Shown piece after piece: positions 32,212-39,472 of a stretch of 64,000 bases of DNA (its first letter is position 1; the number at the start of each line of letters is the position of its first letter). The DNA lies in assembly GCF_027247405.1 (NCBI RefSeq), contig NZ_CP097463.1:4092001-4156000 (forward strand). Direction: 5' to 3'. The notes beneath the pieces were generated by a model. It was not told the DNA's origin, ran no database searches, and was given only the letters and a program-made list of their open reading frames with translations. Source of the DNA: Jatrophihabitans cynanchi. Its GTDB lineage: Bacteria; Actinomycetota; Actinomycetes; Mycobacteriales; Jatrophihabitantaceae. The translations under genes were made by a program, and so were the position numbers.

Positions 32212-32736
32212 ATGCCCGGAGCTATGCACCGGATGGGCGTATACCTCGGCCTCGTCGAAGACGAGGACTACGCCGAGACCGACCAGGGCGTCGGCGCTTA
32301 CGCACACGCCGGCGACCGCGGGCGCCGCGAGGACTACGCGGAGGCGCGCTATCCGCGCGAGCCGCAGCACGGTCGTGGTGCCGAGGTGGTCCGCCGCGAG
32401 TACCCGGACGACGTCGAGGCGTACGCGAACGGCTACGGCTACGCCGACGACCAGCCCACGTACCAGATAACGGCGCTGCACCCGCGCACCTACAACGAGG
32501 CACGCACCATCGGTGAGCACTTCCGCAAGAACACGCCGGTGATCATGAACCTGTCCGAGATGGACGACGCCGACGCGAAACGGCTGGTCGACTTCGCCGC
32601 GGGACTGACCTTCGGCCTGCACGGGCGCATCGAGCGGGTCACCGCGAAGGTGTTCCTGCTCAGCCCGCACAACGTCACCGTGACGGCACAGGACAAGGCG
32701 CGGATGGTTGAGAACACATTCTTCAACCAGTCCTGA
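32212..32736 (+). CDS. sepF: Cell division protein SepF
   Basis: 174 aa. The N-terminal [10 protein letters not shown]-type amphipathic helix (from residue 5) binds membrane; an acidic/Tyr-rich variable linker follows, then the SepF core (about 85-165) with [22 protein letters not shown] and [15 protein letters not shown]. SepF tethers FtsZ to the membrane and is essential in Actinobacteria lacking FtsA. TGGAGGA lies 5 nt before the ATG at 32212; an ATG four codons later is an alternative start. Confidence 0.95.
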
Positions 32737-32822: not shown

Positions 32823-33113
32823 GTGATGACGATGTTCTGGGACATCGTCGGCTATGTGCTGTACGTGTACCTGCTGGTGATCCTGGCCCGCTTCGTGGTC
32901 GAGATCACCCGGCAGTTCGCGCGGGCCTGGCGGCCGGCGGGCATCGCGGCGGTCGGCGTGGAACTGGTGTACGTCGCGACCGACCCGCCGATCCGGCTGC
33001 TGCGGCGGCTCATCCCGCCCTTGCAGCTGGGTTCGCTACGCCTGGATCTGAGCATCATGGTTCTGCTGCTCGGTATCCTTGCGGCCTACTGGGTAGTGCT
33101 GTCCCTGGGCTGA
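32823..33113 (+). CDS. YggT/YlmG family membrane protein
   Basis: About 96 aa with two hydrophobic segments (residues 7-27 and 70-95) and the YggT signature YVATDPPIRLLRRLIPP between them. Its function is not firmly known; genetic linkage to sepF and divIVA is conserved across Gram-positives and cyanobacteria and suggests a role in division or membrane organisation. GTG at 32823 or ATG at 32826 are both possible starts. Confidence 0.9.
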   Translation: MMTMFWDIVGYVLYVYLLVILARFVVEITRQFARAWRPAGIAAVGVELVYVATDPPIRLLRRLIPPLQLGSLRLDLSIMVLLLGILAAYWVVLSLG

Positions 33114-33234
33114 CCGCGGCGCATAAGATCGGACCGCCCGAGCACATGCCACGCCTACCGCACAGCGACCGAACAGCTAGGAACGATGATCTGCACCGGA
33201 GCGCCCGGCTCGCAGCGACACACGAGGTGATCGA

Positions 33235-34143
33235 ATGCCGTTGACGCCCGCTGAAGTCCACAACGTTGCGTTCAAGAAGCCCCCGATCGGCAAGCGTGGG
33301 TACGACGAGGAAGAGGTCGACGCCTTCCTCGACATCGTCGAGGTCGAACTGTCGCGGCTGATCGAGGAGAACAACGACCTGCGCGCCCGCATGGGCAGTG
33401 GTGCACCGGCTCCCGCGTCGGCCGCCGACGCGCCCGCCGACACGGCGAGCGCGGCCGAGCTCGCCTCGGCGCGCGAGGAGAACCAGCGCCTGCAGGCGCA
33501 CGTCGCCGAGCTCGAGCGGGCCATGACGCAGGGCAAGAACGGCGCGCAGCAGCAGGTCGTCCAGCTGCAGCAGCAGCTCGCGCAGACCGAGCAGCAGCTG
33601 GCCGAGAACCGTCGGCAGCTCGAGCAGATGCAGCAGGCCCTCGCCGAGGCACAGCAGCGCGCGGCGCAAGCGCCCGCCGAAACCCCCGGCGCGCCGTCCG
33701 AGCATCACGCCCAGGCGGTGCAGATGCTCGCGCTCGCCCAGCAGACTGCCGACCAGCACCTGGCGCAGTCCAAGGCCGAGGCCGACCGGCTGCTGTCCGA
33801 GGCGCGCGCGAGCGCGCAGAGTTCGCTCGCCGATGCACAGAGCAAGTCCGCCCAGCACGTCGGCGAGGCCGAGATGCGCGCCCGCAAGCTGGACGAGGAG
33901 AGCACCGCTCGTGCCGAGCAGACGGTGCGCGACGCCGAGCAGCGGGCCGCCACCATCACCGCGCAGTTCGAGCAGCGCAAGGCGGCGCTCGAACGGCGGG
34001 TGGAGGAGCTGCGGGTGTACGAGCGCGAGTACCGCACCCGGCTGCGCGGCTACCTGGAGTCGCAGCTGCGTGACCTGGACGCCAGCGGGCGGGCCGAGCC
34101 GAGCGGGCAGCCGGACGAGCAGGCGGACGCGCAGCGCAGTTGA
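33235..34143 (+). CDS. divIVA: DivIVA/Wag31 polar growth protein
   Basis: 302 aa. The conserved N-terminal lipid-binding domain ([32 protein letters not shown]) is followed by long coiled coils rich in Gln, Glu and Ala ([19 protein letters not shown] and later segments), interrupted by an Ala/Pro linker near residue 145. It marks curved membrane at poles and septa and directs apical growth in Actinobacteria. GAGGTGATCG precedes the ATG. The preceding 121-bp gap contains TAAGAT at 33124-33129, a possible -10. Its stop lies in the first unit of a triplicated 16-bp repeat. Confidence 0.96.
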
Positions 34144-34180
34144 GATATAGCGCAGCTGAGTTACAGCGCAGCTGAATCTC
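34133..34180 (+). repeat. Three 16-bp repeats spanning the divIVA stop codon
   Basis: Units beginning AGCGCAG(C/T)TGA at 34133, 34149 and 34165 repeat every 16 bp. The first holds the divIVA stop TGA. Because 16 is not a multiple of three, each copy offers a TGA in a different phase. No hairpin is evident. Confidence 0.85.
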
Positions 34181-34223
34181 ACTGCACGTGCGCAGCCGGG
34201 CGTAGCGGCGGGAGTAGGGCGTC

Positions 34224-34850
34224 ATGGTGCTGATCGGGCTTCTTCTGCTCGCCCTGGCGTGCCTCATCCTGGGCCTGGTACTGGCCAGCGCGGCCTGGCT
34301 GATCGGCTCGCTCGTCGCGAGCGTGGCCGCCGCCTTCGCCCTCTGGCAGACCCGGGAGCGGATCGGCTCGGGCGCGGCGTCCGCTGCGCACACCGCGAGG
34401 GCGGCGCCGGCTGCGTCAGCTCCGCCGACGGCGCCCGCCAAGGCCGAAGCTGCCTCGGCCGCGGACGAGACGGGGCTCGATCAGGACTACCTCGCCCGGC
34501 GCGCCGCCTGGTTCGCCGAGGGCACCCGCTCCGGCGACGTGTGGGTGATCGACGGCCGCCCGGACTATCACCGCGCCGGCTGCGGCCTGCTCGGCGGGAC
34601 GGACGCCGAGCCGATCCCGCGCAGCCAAGCGGTCGAGGACGGCTTCACCCCGTGCGGCACGTGCACGCCGGACGCGGTCGCCGAACCGCCTCCCGACGCG
34701 GTCTGGGTGGTGGACGGCCGGCCGCGCTATCACCGCTCCGACTGCATGATCATCAGCGGTCAGCAGGCCGAGGCCGTCCCCTACGCGCAGGCGAGCGCCG
34801 ACGGGTTCATGCCGTGCGCCCTGTGCGAGCCGGACGCCGCGCGCGCCTGA
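34224..34850 (+). CDS. Membrane protein with duplicated HxxxC/CxxC metal-site modules
   Basis: 208 aa. Two adjacent hydrophobic segments (residues 2-42), an Ala/Pro linker, then two homologous 44-residue modules: 106-149 with H116, C120, C144, C147 and 160-203 with H170, C174, C198, C201. Each reads VWV(I/V)DGRP-Y-HR-x2-C, then DGF-x-PC-x2-C. This is the pattern of small zinc-binding modules related to the Ada metal-binding fold that occur at the ends of nucleases and surface proteins. Metal binding is inferred; function is unknown. It follows divIVA and ends 6 bp from the convergent ileS, so it may be co-transcribed with divIVA. Confidence 0.75.
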   Translation: MVLIGLLLLALACLILGLVLASAAWLIGSLVASVAAAFALWQTRERIGSGAASAAHTARAAPAASAPPTAPAKAEAASAADETGLDQDYLARRAAWFAEGTRSGDVWVIDGRPDYHRAGCGLLGGTDAEPIPRSQAVEDGFTPCGTCTPDAVAEPPPDAVWVVDGRPRYHRSDCMIISGQQAEAVPYAQASADGFMPCALCEPDAARA

Positions 34851-34856
34851 GCCGGG

Positions 34857-37800
34857 TCAGCAGGCGCGGCGCAGCCAGATCGTCAGTCCCAGGTCCTCAT
34901 CGGTCACCCGGAACGTCTCGACGCCCTCGCCGGGCACCCCCTCGTGCACGCCAGTCGCGAGTACTTCGGCCGCCAGCTGGTCGGCGTGGCTGCGGATCGC
35001 CTCGGCGGGTTCGGGCGAGCCGCCCACCTGCCACCACAGCTCGATCCGGTCGGTCACGTCGAGGTCGGCGGCCTTGCGGGCGTCCTGCACCACCCTGACG
35101 ATGTCGCGCAGCAGCCCGGCCAGGCGCAGCTCGTGTGTCAGCTCCAGATCGAGGGCCACCGTCTCCGCGCCGGCGGAGGCGACCGCCCAGCCCGAGCGCG
35201 GCGTCTCGGTGATGGTCACCTCCTCGCCGGTGAGCGGCACGTCCGCACCGGCCACCTGCACCGTGGCGGTGCCGGCGGCGAGCGCGATCGCCAGTTCGCG
35301 GGCATCGGCAGACGCGATCGCCTTGGCCACCGCCTGGGTGCCGTTGCCGAACCGCTTGCCCAGTGCGCGGAAGTTCGCCTTCGCGGTGACGTCGACCAGT
35401 TCGCCCGCGGTCGACTCGGCCAGGGCGGCCAGTTCGATCACGTTCAGCTCGGCCGCGACCTCCTGCCGCAGTCCCTCGGGCAGCCGGGCCCAGCCCGGCG
35501 CCGAGACGAGCGCCCGGGCCAGCGGCTGGCGGGTCTTCACGCCGGACTCGGCCCGCGCGGCCCGGCCCAGCTCGACCAGGCGCCGCACCTGCGCGACGTG
35601 TTCGCCGAGCGCGACGTCGACCAAGGACTCGTCCGCGATCGGCCACGCCGCGAGGTGCACCGAGTCGATCGTGCCGCCGAGAACCTCGGGGGAGAACAGC
35701 GACTGCCACACCCGCTCGGTCACGAACGGGACGAACGGGGCCAGCAGCCGGGTCAGCACGTGCAGGCACTCGTGCAGCGTGGTCAGCGCGGCCGGGTCAC
35801 CGTCCCAGAACCGCCGGCGCGAGCGGCGCACGTACCAGTTGGACAGGTCGTCGATGTAGCCGGCGAGCGCGCGGCCGGCGCGGGCGGTGTCGAAGTCCTC
35901 CAACGCGGCGTCGACCTCGGCGCTCACCCGGTGCATCTCGGACAGCGCCCACCGGTCCAGCTCGGTGGGGGTACCGGCGTCGGTCCCCCCGGCCGGGGCC
36001 CAGCCGTTCGCCCGCGCGTACAGCGACTGGAACGAGGCCACCGACCAGTACGTGCGGATGACCTTGGACGCAATCTCCTCGAGCGCCTTGTGCCCGACGC
36101 GCCGCGCGGACCACGGCGAGCCGCTGCACAGCATGAACCAGCGCAGCGCGTCCGCGCCGTGCTGATCCATCAGCGGGATCGGCTCGAGGATGTTGCCCAG
36201 GTGCTTGCTCATCTTGCGGCCGTCCTCGGCGAGGATGTGGCCCAGGCACAGCACGGTGCGGTACGAGCTCTGGTCGAACACCAGGGTGCCGACCGCCATC
36301 AGCGAGTAGAACCAGCCGCGGGTCTGGTCGATGGCCTCGCAGATGTAGTCCGCGGGGTAAGCGGCCCGAGCGGCGTCGGCGTTGCGCCACGGCGCGCCGA
36401 ACTGCGCGAACGGCATGGAGCCGGAGTCGAACCACGCGTCGATCACCTGCGGCACGCGGCGGTACGTCCCGTCCTCGCCGTCGACCGTGAAGGTGACGTC
36501 GTCGACGAACGGCCGGTGCGGGTCGTCGAGGTCGACGCCGGAGCGGTCGCGCAACTCGGCCAGCGATCCGATGCAGACCAGCCGCGTCGGGTCGGCATCG
36601 TTGCGCCATACCGGCAGCGGCGTGCCCCAGTAGCGATCGCGCGAGAGCGACCAGTCGATGTTGTTGGTGAGCCAGTCGCCGTAGCGCCCGTGCTTGATCG
36701 TCGCCGGGTACCAGGTCGTCGCCTCGTTCTCGGCGAGCAGCCGGTCCTTCACCTCGGTAGTGCGGATGTACCAGGCGGGCAGGGCGTAGTACATCAGCGG
36801 CGTGTGGCAGCGCCAGCAGTGCGGGTAGCTGTGCGTGTACGGCACGTGCCGGAACAGCAGGCCGCGCTCGCGCAGGTTCGCGACCAGTTGCTCGTCGGCG
36901 TCCTTGAAGAACACGCCGCCGACCGGGCCTACTCCGGGCAGGAAGTGGCCGTTGCTCGCGATCGGGTTCACCACGATCAGCCCGTAGGCGCGGCTGACCG
37001 CCAGGTCGTCGGCACCGAAGGCCGGCGCCTGGTGCACCAGGCCGGTGCCGTCCTCGGTGGTGACGTAGTCGGCGAGGACGACGAAGTGCGCGTCGGTGCT
37101 CTTCGGCTCGGCGGCAGGAACGGCGATCTCGCCCGATGACTCGGGAAAGGCCACGTAGTGGAACGGCCGCTCGTAGTGCCAGTACTCCATCTCGCGTCCG
37201 GTCACGGCGGCCAGCTCGACGGCGTCCTCGCCGAGCACGTCGCGCCACAGCGGTTCGGCGACCACGAACGTCCCGTTGGCGGTTCGGGCCACCACGTACT
37301 GCACGTCCGGGTGCACCGCGACGGCAGTGTTGGACACCAGCGTCCACGGCGTCGTGGTCCAGACCAGCAGGTCGGCCTGGCCGGCCCACGGGCCGGACGT
37401 CAGCGGGAAGCGCACGTAGACCGACGGATCGGTGACGTCCTCGTAGCCCTGGGCGACCTCGTGGTCGGACAGCCCGGTGCCGCAGCGCGGGCAGTACGGC
37501 GCGACGCGATAGTCCTCGACGAGCAGCCCCTTGTCGAAGATCTGCTTGAGCGCCCACCAGACCGACTCGACGTAGTCCGGGCGCATCGTCCAGTAGGCGT
37601 TCTCGTAGTCGGCCCAGTAGCCCATCCGCTCGCTCATCGCCTCGAACGCGTCGACGTGGCGCTGCACGTTCTCGCGGCACTTGGCGTTGAACTCGGCGAT
37701 GCCGTACGCCTCGATGTCCGGCTTGCCGGTGAAGCCGAGCTCCTTCTCCACGGCGAGCTCGACCGGCAGGCCGTGGCAGTCCCAGCCCGCCATCCGCGGG

Positions 37801-38051
37801 ACGTGGTAGCCCTTCATCGTCTTGAACCGCGGGAAGATGTCCTTGAACACGCGGGCCTCGACGTGGTGCGTGCCGGGCATGCCGTTCGCGGTCGGCGGTC
37901 CCTCGTAGAAGGTCCAGCCCGGGCCGTGCTCGGTCTGCTCCAGGCTGCGCGCGAACACGCGCAGCTCGCGCCAGCGGTCGATCACCTCGTGGTCGAGCGC
38001 GGCGAGGTCGACGTGCGGCGGGAGCGGCTGGTAGCCGGAGCCTTCGGTCAT
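34857..38051 (-). CDS. ileS: Isoleucyl-tRNA synthetase
   Basis: 1064 aa, a class I synthetase. The HIGH-type signature is PPTANGMPGTHH (residues 52-63) and the second signature is DGRKMSKHLGN. An editing (CP1) domain lies between them, with CPRC near residue 190 and CWRC further on, and a C-terminal anticodon-binding region follows. Its length and the ANGxPGTHH form resemble the eukaryote-like (type 2) IleRS group, which tends to tolerate mupirocin. A T-box leader lies directly upstream and should couple expression to uncharged tRNA(Ile). The gene is convergent with the metal-site protein and divergent from the DUF167 gene. Confidence 0.97.
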   Translation of the reverse strand: MTEGSGYQPLPPHVDLAALDHEVIDRWRELRVFARSLEQTEHGPGWTFYEGPPTANGMPGTHHVEARVFKDIFPRFKTMKGYHVPRMAGWDCHGLPVELAVEKELGFTGKPDIEAYGIAEFNAKCRENVQRHVDAFEAMSERMGYWADYENAYWTMRPDYVESVWWALKQIFDKGLLVEDYRVAPYCPRCGTGLSDHEVAQGYEDVTDPSVYVRFPLTSGPWAGQADLLVWTTTPWTLVSNTAVAVHPDVQYVVARTANGTFVVAEPLWRDVLGEDAVELAAVTGREMEYWHYERPFHYVAFPESSGEIAVPAAEPKSTDAHFVVLADYVTTEDGTGLVHQAPAFGADDLAVSRAYGLIVVNPIASNGHFLPGVGPVGGVFFKDADEQLVANLRERGLLFRHVPYTHSYPHCWRCHTPLMYYALPAWYIRTTEVKDRLLAENEATTWYPATIKHGRYGDWLTNNIDWSLSRDRYWGTPLPVWRNDADPTRLVCIGSLAELRDRSGVDLDDPHRPFVDDVTFTVDGEDGTYRRVPQVIDAWFDSGSMPFAQFGAPWRNADAARAAYPADYICEAIDQTRGWFYSLMAVGTLVFDQSSYRTVLCLGHILAEDGRKMSKHLGNILEPIPLMDQHGADALRWFMLCSGSPWSARRVGHKALEEIASKVIRTYWSVASFQSLYARANGWAPAGGTDAGTPTELDRWALSEMHRVSAEVDAALEDFDTARAGRALAGYIDDLSNWYVRRSRRRFWDGDPAALTTLHECLHVLTRLLAPFVPFVTERVWQSLFSPEVLGGTIDSVHLAAWPIADESLVDVALGEHVAQVRRLVELGRAARAESGVKTRQPLARALVSAPGWARLPEGLRQEVAAELNVIELAALAESTAGELVDVTAKANFRALGKRFGNGTQAVAKAIASADARELAIALAAGTATVQVAGADVPLTGEEVTITETPRSGWAVASAGAETVALDLELTHELRLAGLLRDIVRVVQDARKAADLDVTDRIELWWQVGGSPEPAEAIRSHADQLAAEVLATGVHEGVPGEGVETFRVTDEDLGLTIWLRRAC

Positions 38052-38637: not shown

Positions 38638-38735
38638 TCGGCGTGGCCACTAGCGGTGCGGTTGCCGGGACCATATAGTTGCCGCCTTTGCGGGCCATGG
38701 AATGCCACGGGCCGCCCAGGAGAGGGGATCAGCCG

Positions 38736-39472
38736 ATGGCTGCCGTAGGACGGATCGGGCGCGCGCTGCGCCGTGTCGGCGGTAGCTCGTCCGCAGCTGG
38801 CGCGACACAGGGGGCAGCCGCGAAGAAGGCTCCCGCGAAGAAGGTTCCCGCGAAGAAGGCCCCGCGAAGAAGGCTGCGCCCGCGAAGAAGGCGCCCGCGA
38901 AGAAGGCGCCCGCGAAGAAGGCGCCCGCGAAGAAGGCGCCCGCCAAGAAGGCGCCCGCCAAGAAGGCGCCCGCCAAGAAGGCGCCCGCGAAGAAGGCTGC
39001 GCCCGCGAAGAAGGCCCCCGCGAAGAAGGCCCCCGCGAAGAAGGCCCCCGCGAAGGCAACGATGCCCGCCACGCCGACGCCCTCGACCCCCGCCGTACCC
39101 AAGGGTTCGGAGTGGACCCGGGCCGAGCTCAAGGCCGTGCGCAAGCAGCTCACCGACGAGCTCGCCCAGATGCGCAGCGCGTACGACCGGTCGATCCGCG
39201 ACCTCAACGACCTGCAGCAGGCCGGGACGGACGGCGCGGGCGACGACCAGGCCGACGCCGGTAGCAAGACCTTCGAACGCGAGCAGGAGCAGTCGATCGC
39301 CGCCAACCGGCTCGACCTGCTCACCCAGATCCAGCGCGCCGTCGAGCGGATCGACGACGGCAGCTACGGGTTCTGCGAGAGCTGCGGCAAGCCGATTCCG
39401 AAGGCCCGGCTCAAGGCGTTCCCGGCCGCGACCCTCGACGTGAACTGCAAGCAGCGCGAGGAGCGCCGCTGA
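38736..39472 (+). CDS. DksA/TraR-type protein with KKAPA-repeat tail; frameshifted as given
   Basis: The gene starts at ATG 38736 behind GGAGAGGGG and encodes MAAVGRIGRALRRVGG, then a long Lys-Ala-Ala-Pro repeat of the histone H1-like kind, then a coiled coil and a DksA/TraR-type zinc finger (from about 39100). The frame breaks inside the repeat at 38860-38863, where CCCC replaces the CCCCC seen in equivalent units; restoring one C gives a continuous protein of about 245 aa. In the finger, CESC is normal, but the third ligand position reads Asp (TLDVNC). Homologues sit between ileS and lspA in other Actinobacteria. It probably binds RNA polymerase and, through the tail, nucleic acid. Sequencing error or true frameshift cannot be told apart here. 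Confidence 0.72.
38818..39058 (+). repeat. 15-bp coding repeat array (KKAPA codons)
   Basis: About 15 copies of a 15-bp unit GCGAAGAAGGCNCCC with few substitutions, a few units lengthened by a GCT or GCG codon. It encodes Lys-Lys-Ala-Pro-Ala. A minisatellite like this is prone to length change and to assembly error; the frameshift described for the host gene lies in its third to fourth unit. Confidence 0.9.

Follow-up and report, generated by a model that had tools for sequence, protein, structure and literature searches.

A conserved neighbour of divIVA in actinobacteria encodes a predicted membrane hairpin with a variable number of Ada-like modules

Introduction

DivIVA organises polar growth in actinobacteria, and to our knowledge its links to the membrane and to the chromosome are incompletely known. 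A precedent for the protein reported here is GlpR, a membrane protein whose cytoplasmic regions are disordered and which connects Glp, itself bound to FtsZ, with the Wag31 DivIVA domain (PMC10522489). NCBIfam groups it (NF050099, NF045516) with Streptomyces SepX, which likewise has three helices, and whose two cytoplasmic regions are for the most part disordered (PMC8748795). For the metal modules, the point of reference is the N-terminal zinc domain of Ada (N-Ada, PF02805). According to PMC10814553, the methyl acceptor of E. coli Ada is Cys38, and methylated N-Ada is a strong DNA binder.

Here we analyse a 64,000-nucleotide stretch, referred to as the window, of the genome of Jatrophihabitans cynanchi, which is a single contig of 4.5 Mb. 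A first-pass annotation of this DNA had singled out an ORF with tandem metal modules on a membrane anchor beside divIVA, and had suggested that its product might sense zinc or redox state at the growing pole. Loci and lineages are cited by L and f numbers where they need to be told apart.

Results

The ORF lies where it had been annotated, at 34,224..34,850 on the forward strand (208 codons plus stop), and has both homologues and an AlphaFold2 model. The order upstream of it is ftsZ, sepF (32,212..32,736, forward; PF04472), a gene for a YGGT-family membrane protein in the sepF–divIVA interval (32,823..33,113, forward; PF02325) and divIVA itself as the immediate neighbour (33,235..34,143, forward; PF05103, 54.7 bits). 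Its ATG start stands 80 nt past the divIVA stop, and its end is separated by 6 nt from a convergent class I tRNA synthetase gene, which we take to be ileS (34,857..38,051, reverse; PF00133, PF08264). Pfam models confirmed FtsZ, SepF, YGGT, DivIVA and the synthetase, so that the placement directly after divIVA in the division cluster is borne out, while a promoter and terminator scan over 33,000–34,950 returned zero sites. PMC4255298 remarks on SCO2078, a membrane protein that flanks divIVA on its opposite side. Farther downstream, a DksA/TraR-type ORF (39,062–39,472; PF01258) has a long in-frame AKKAP repeat ahead of it (38,640–39,472 in all), and the repeat also starts upstream in another frame, so either the repeat has suffered an indel or the ORF starts internally.

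The 208-residue protein begins with two predicted helices, in line with the two membrane segments noted earlier. Helix 1 (residues 2–20; 34,227..34,283, forward; pLDDT about 90 in AlphaFold2) would span the membrane, judging by its hydrophobicity, and the putative transmembrane helix 2 (residues 23–44; 34,290..34,355, forward) was delimited by inspection of hydrophobicity within a modelled helix of residues 23–60; mean pLDDT over residues 1–50 is 86–91 by block. A low-complexity, Ala/Pro-rich linker follows (residues 45–105; 34,356..34,538, forward), with block pLDDT of 51–71 over residues 51–110. Then come module 1 (residues 106–150; 34,539..34,673, forward; H116, C120, C144 and C147) and module 2 (residues 160–204; 34,701..34,835, forward; H170, C174, C198 and C201). 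Both read H-x3-C-x23-C-x2-C, with the identical spacing described for them; each is 45 residues long, one more than the 44 first given, and they are identical at 25 of the 45 positions. Six of the protein's seven cysteines belong to the module motif. The protein thus has the two features by which we propose to define a divIVA-linked family, an N-terminal two-helix hairpin and a same-strand gene directly past divIVA.

Domain-model searches recognised no output domain in the 208 residues, and hmmscan against family models gave no match over cut-off; the PHROGs match is to phrog_14556 (1.6e-6), a family without known function. DUF6233 (PF19746) partially matches the module at 23.7 bits, below its cut-off of 27.6, and 15 of 36 orthologues match it with E no higher than 0.01; its best stretch, residues 116–151, is the module alone and leaves the hairpin uncovered.

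The module itself has a recognisable relative. A module profile of 47 rows, both window copies among them, was run against the whole genome of the organism and found the two copies at 3.9e-26 and 9.4e-26, then the true Ada (0.0053) and a last, insignificant hit (0.28), so the single-module search that had been suggested as a check leads, weakly, to Ada. Against the PDB the same profile retrieves N-Ada at 3.4e-4. Since Foldseek with the whole model was weak (E 0.33), the second module was folded alone (pLDDT 90.6); among PDB entries, Foldseek placed the methylated N-Ada/DNA complex first (probability 0.98, E 0.17, TMq 0.69). In VIA, the comparison with Ada gives Z 5.3, rmsd 2.4 and 52 aligned residues, a modest Z obtained with a predicted model, and the four rows with Z over 2 are all Ada. 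Aligned by hhalign with Ada from this genome and its relatives (probability 89, pairwise E 2.2e-6), the module places its His on the methyl-accepting Cys of Ada while the three remaining Cys align; in true Ada of the organism and its relatives that Cys is kept in 16 of 16 rows. A precise match to a characterised family, which would have spoken against the earlier reading, did not appear in hmmscan; PF02805 itself scores 22 bits on the window protein (cut-off 23) and 24.5 bits in the genome scan, where both copies are summed. Several of the nearest viral-model matches of the module are annotated 'Metal binding domain of Ada'.

On sequence comparison, then, the module is distantly related to N-Ada: fold, order of ligand positions and the GF.PC..C.PD end are the same, whereas the methyl-accepting Cys is a His in the module and the distance from the second to the third ligand is 26 residues in Ada and mostly 23 in the module. 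Unlike Ada, the module protein has a membrane hairpin and lacks a transcription-factor or alkyltransferase domain, and the divIVA-linked modules are often acidic and sometimes repeated. The fold seems to be of the Ada type, yet Ada chemistry is unlikely, because a His is not expected to accept a methyl group; the ligands probably hold zinc. The kinship with N-Ada might suggest an Ada-like repair or alkylation-responsive protein. We consider this extremely improbable and reject Ada-type alkylation repair, as the methyl acceptor is replaced by His and a full Ada domain sits elsewhere in the same genome (C1:3127523, 106.8 bits).

Conservation beside divIVA had been named as one check. Within the same order, a search with the single protein matched 126 of 200 genomes, its own included, and 46 of 60 genera. 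Loci were taken from 114 of the 125 other matching genomes and from two extra f12 genomes, 116 in all, and 108 of these have a same-strand DivIVA match at most 1.5 kb upstream. A script called 106 of them; L208 and L227 were counted after reading. L208 has a frame without the first helix, and in L227 hairpin and module are in different frames. The remaining eight comprise four loci cut by contig ends, two with the same architecture away from DivIVA (L207, L235) and two (L239, L243) that lack DivIVA as well as a called hairpin-module ORF. A contig scan with the single protein gave no match, and an alignment query gave 295 relatives; among the best 80 of these 295, a set of named loci that overlaps the order set and includes Micromonospora, Actinoplanes, Catellatospora, Pseudonocardia, Actinokineospora and Blastococcus, DivIVA lies within the same 1.5 kb upstream in 77. 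The exceptions are L100 and L106, near a contig end, and L107, with its nearest DivIVA match 5.1 kb upstream. From the divIVA stop to the start codon the median distance is 81 nt, and it is at most 150 nt in 89 of the 96 measurable loci out of 112.

Class-wide, a family profile matches 78 of 296 genomes, some solely via the module on other proteins. Subtracting the genome itself, 22 f7 genomes and 3 others leaves 52 matched genomes outside the order, of which 25 were read: 16 module-bearing, 8 of f28 and 1 of f37. DivIVA is upstream within 1.5 kb on the same strand at all 16 module-bearing loci read from these other orders. Outside the class, 6 of 28 loci read have a DivIVA match; four further ones show ileS or sepF, the short stretch fetched there containing no match to DivIVA, and the remaining 18 are other carriers of the module. 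The module outside the class also occurs on proteins other than divIVA-linked ones, and we take some of these to be nuclease, metallo-beta-lactamase-like and S-layer-type proteins. Conservation in many genomes places the two-module observation beyond chance. The gene could still be a neighbour without functional link, an unrelated conserved membrane protein that a stable division cluster has retained at its end: family loci often have ileS, lspA and further genes close by as well, L207 and L235 have the architecture away from DivIVA, and a conserved neighbourhood can persist without interaction. We regard this as quite unlikely, given that the linkage holds in other orders and outside the class while the genes downstream change.

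A second two-helix family also carries one C-terminal Ada-like module, but on a different hairpin sequence and with no DivIVA match in the stretches fetched. Its hairpin is G-rich, often with a QxPYL or QLPWL motif, and its members are L279, L282, L291–L295, L299, L302, L303, L304–L307, L309–L311, L313 and L239.

What follows the hairpin varies widely. By the strict pattern, 195 distinct proteins carry one module (176), two (15), three (2), four (1) or seven (1), counts that are lower bounds where a frame runs off the fetched stretch (e.g. L146, L148, L149), and the first module begins 3–1003 residues (median 103) after residue 50. The homologues of L127–L130, at 733–1107 residues, are almost wholly linker with one module (a loose pattern gives two in L129). 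When 29 modules from the window's own family are placed in a tree, window module 2 groups with the 8 single modules, 5 of 6 last modules and one internal copy (support 84/75), the sixth last module (L003) being cut by a contig end, while module 1 falls outside with other internal copies. This grouping suggests that the second head was probably inherited and the first one added, in a tree of few columns with 3 of 26 inner branches well supported.

The modules can also be missing. In the f7 genomes, which gave no match among the matches listed in the first single-protein search, a two-helix ORF without a module follows divIVA at 7 of 7 loci fetched, and two of these proteins are little beyond the hairpin (57 and 65 residues). 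The family profile finds the module-less protein in 22 of 24 f7 genomes shown, 21 of the 22 matches lying at most 1.5 kb after a DivIVA-domain match on the same strand and one on a different contig. From gene order, this protein presumably corresponds to mycobacterial Rv2144c, whose gene adjoins wag31; it shares the position and, as read in f7 genomes, the two-helix type with the family, whereas the window protein has modules and the f7 proteins read have none. In f28, of which 12 genomes matched, all 8 loci read encode an anchor with a Lys/Ala/Thr-rich tail and no module; DivIVA is upstream at 6, whereas the stretches fetched for L156 and L159 contain no match to it. In the same lineage the module appears on proteins of another kind with hydrophobic segments, with no DivIVA match, in 10 of 10 further stretches from 9 genomes. 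Finally, in L161, a divIVA-linked protein from the single f37 assembly, the module is recognisable with its His and all three Cys replaced; a search for further f37 members that could confirm the ligand loss found this one genome. At four loci each of f2 and f3, the script found no clearly hydrophobic ORF of at least 70 codons directly past divIVA. In L290 (451–1635), two consecutive ORFs are each hairpin-first, the second with a module and the first seen in part, which suggests local duplication of the anchor.

As far as these sequences go, modules are dispensable at the divIVA locus, and the module-less forms are taken as orthologues mainly for their position, because short hydrophobic hairpins give weak, composition-driven similarity. 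Since the hairpin and its position past divIVA are what the members read have in common, any shared function should lie in the hairpin, with heads that are lineage-specific. The proposal of a zinc or redox sensor at the pole fares accordingly: a metal-type module on a membrane anchor is indeed present, and the H-C-C-C ligands have near-fixed spacing (exactly 23 residues between ligands 2 and 3 in 198 of 223 modules, a count from a pattern that itself required the ligands), yet sensing as the core function of the family is weakened because the module is absent (7 f7 loci, 8 f28 loci) or ligand-free (L161, a single assembly) at the divIVA locus, and no output domain accompanies it. The f28 module on a different membrane protein cuts both ways: the module may have a role of its own, and in f28 a sensor may act apart from the divIVA-linked protein and away from DivIVA. 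Overall we judge the polar sensor improbable.

Tail charge separates the lineages further. Net charge has a median of −2 per module over 223 modules from all lineages, of −11.5 for f1 tails (n=14) and of −35 for tails of the L141–L152 group (n=12); it lies between −19 and −29 in 5 of 7 f7 tails, as against +24 to +35 in the f28 tails (8 of 8 proteins read). With net charge opposite between lineages, one function or partner common to all tails is unlikely. The basic tails raise the reading of a membrane-anchored nucleoid tether, in which the tail would bind DNA and hold chromosome regions near DivIVA foci. Consistent with it are the Lys/Ala-rich f28 tails, with DivIVA upstream in most of them, the presence of K/A-rich stretches in 9 out of 212 module-bearing rows (including two pairs that each seem to stem from one genome), module charges of +2 to +10 in 6 of 9 loci tried outside the class, and the DNA binding reported for methylated N-Ada in PMC10814553. 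The module pattern failed in the other three loci outside the class (L276, L278 and L290, with tails of −22, +2 and +11). Against a tether stand the acidic modules and tails of the window's own lineage (f1), the acidic f7 tails and, outside the class, those of L276 and L277 (the latter −15), and the six positions around CxxC, basic in Ada, which have no K or R in 130 of 223 modules; K/A repeats are moreover low complexity, and one also precedes the window's DksA-like ORF. The tether seems to us rather unlikely. DNA binding by the window's own modules is not favoured, as they are acidic and do not have the basic residues.

The heads and C-terminal part probably lie in the cytoplasm, on a side that the mixed charge after helix 2 leaves insecure: of 123 distinct proteins, 78 have a net positive charge over the 20 residues past this helix, 33 a negative one and 12 none, and the inter-helix loop is near neutral. 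In PMC5405230, Rv2144c figures as an exported protein that is induced during infection. This fits poorly with cytoplasmic tails, unless the hairpin was where the reporter had been inserted.

The likeness to SepX/GlpR is one of layout, membrane helices with disordered cytoplasmic regions. The NCBIfam models (cut-offs 150 and 160 bits) gave no match to the window protein up to E 1; among orthologues, weak similarity appears in 3 of 36 for NF050099 and 1 of 36 for NF045516, and L053 reaches 16.2 bits (cut-off 150). One f7 protein has SepX/GlpR as its best NCBIfam match (20.8 bits where the cut-off is 150; E 3e-4), with two other membrane-protein families scoring almost as high. SepX and GlpR have three helices (PMC8748795, PMC10522489) and another locus, whereas the window protein has two predicted helices. 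A separate candidate in the same genome, C1:3023223–3023804 (L268), fits the SepX/GlpR layout and scores below the NCBIfam cut-offs. Score, helix number and this separate candidate led us to reject the window protein as a SepX/GlpR orthologue.

Discussion

The explanation to which we give about an even chance is that the divIVA-linked protein serves the DivIVA machinery of pole or septum as an adaptor, anchored in the membrane and bearing cytoplasmic heads that can be exchanged. The two-helix hairpin, followed by a flexible linker with zero to seven Ada-like metal modules, would keep the protein at the membrane and, by extension, in the DivIVA assembly at the pole or septum; linker and heads would reach into the cytoplasm and capture a lineage-specific partner, and in the window protein the heads would probably be zinc-stabilised binding modules, doubled for avidity. 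Such a tethered adaptor is the simplest reading of the anatomy, with GlpR as precedent. Against it speak L207 and L235, which lie away from DivIVA, and L107, which is distant from it. A mixed form, in which the protein is a polar docking device with exchangeable ends, so that several lineages, with Lys/Ala-rich tails or basic Ada-like heads, tie the nucleoid to the DivIVA assembly whereas the acidic, multiplied heads of the window lineage hold a protein partner, has in our estimate a small chance of being right.

By title and abstract, no published description of the divIVA-linked family was found among the matches listed, subscription literature being mostly beyond reach. The gene is a conserved divIVA neighbour, undescribed within the literature searched, in which the type of module is known and its arrangement new. 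As a widely conserved neighbour of divIVA for which no description was found, the hairpin gene is a direct candidate for a link between DivIVA and the membrane or chromosome. The natural series of headless forms, forms with one to seven heads, a basic tail and a ligand-free head may moreover serve as a ready-made set of variants with which to test the parts of the protein.
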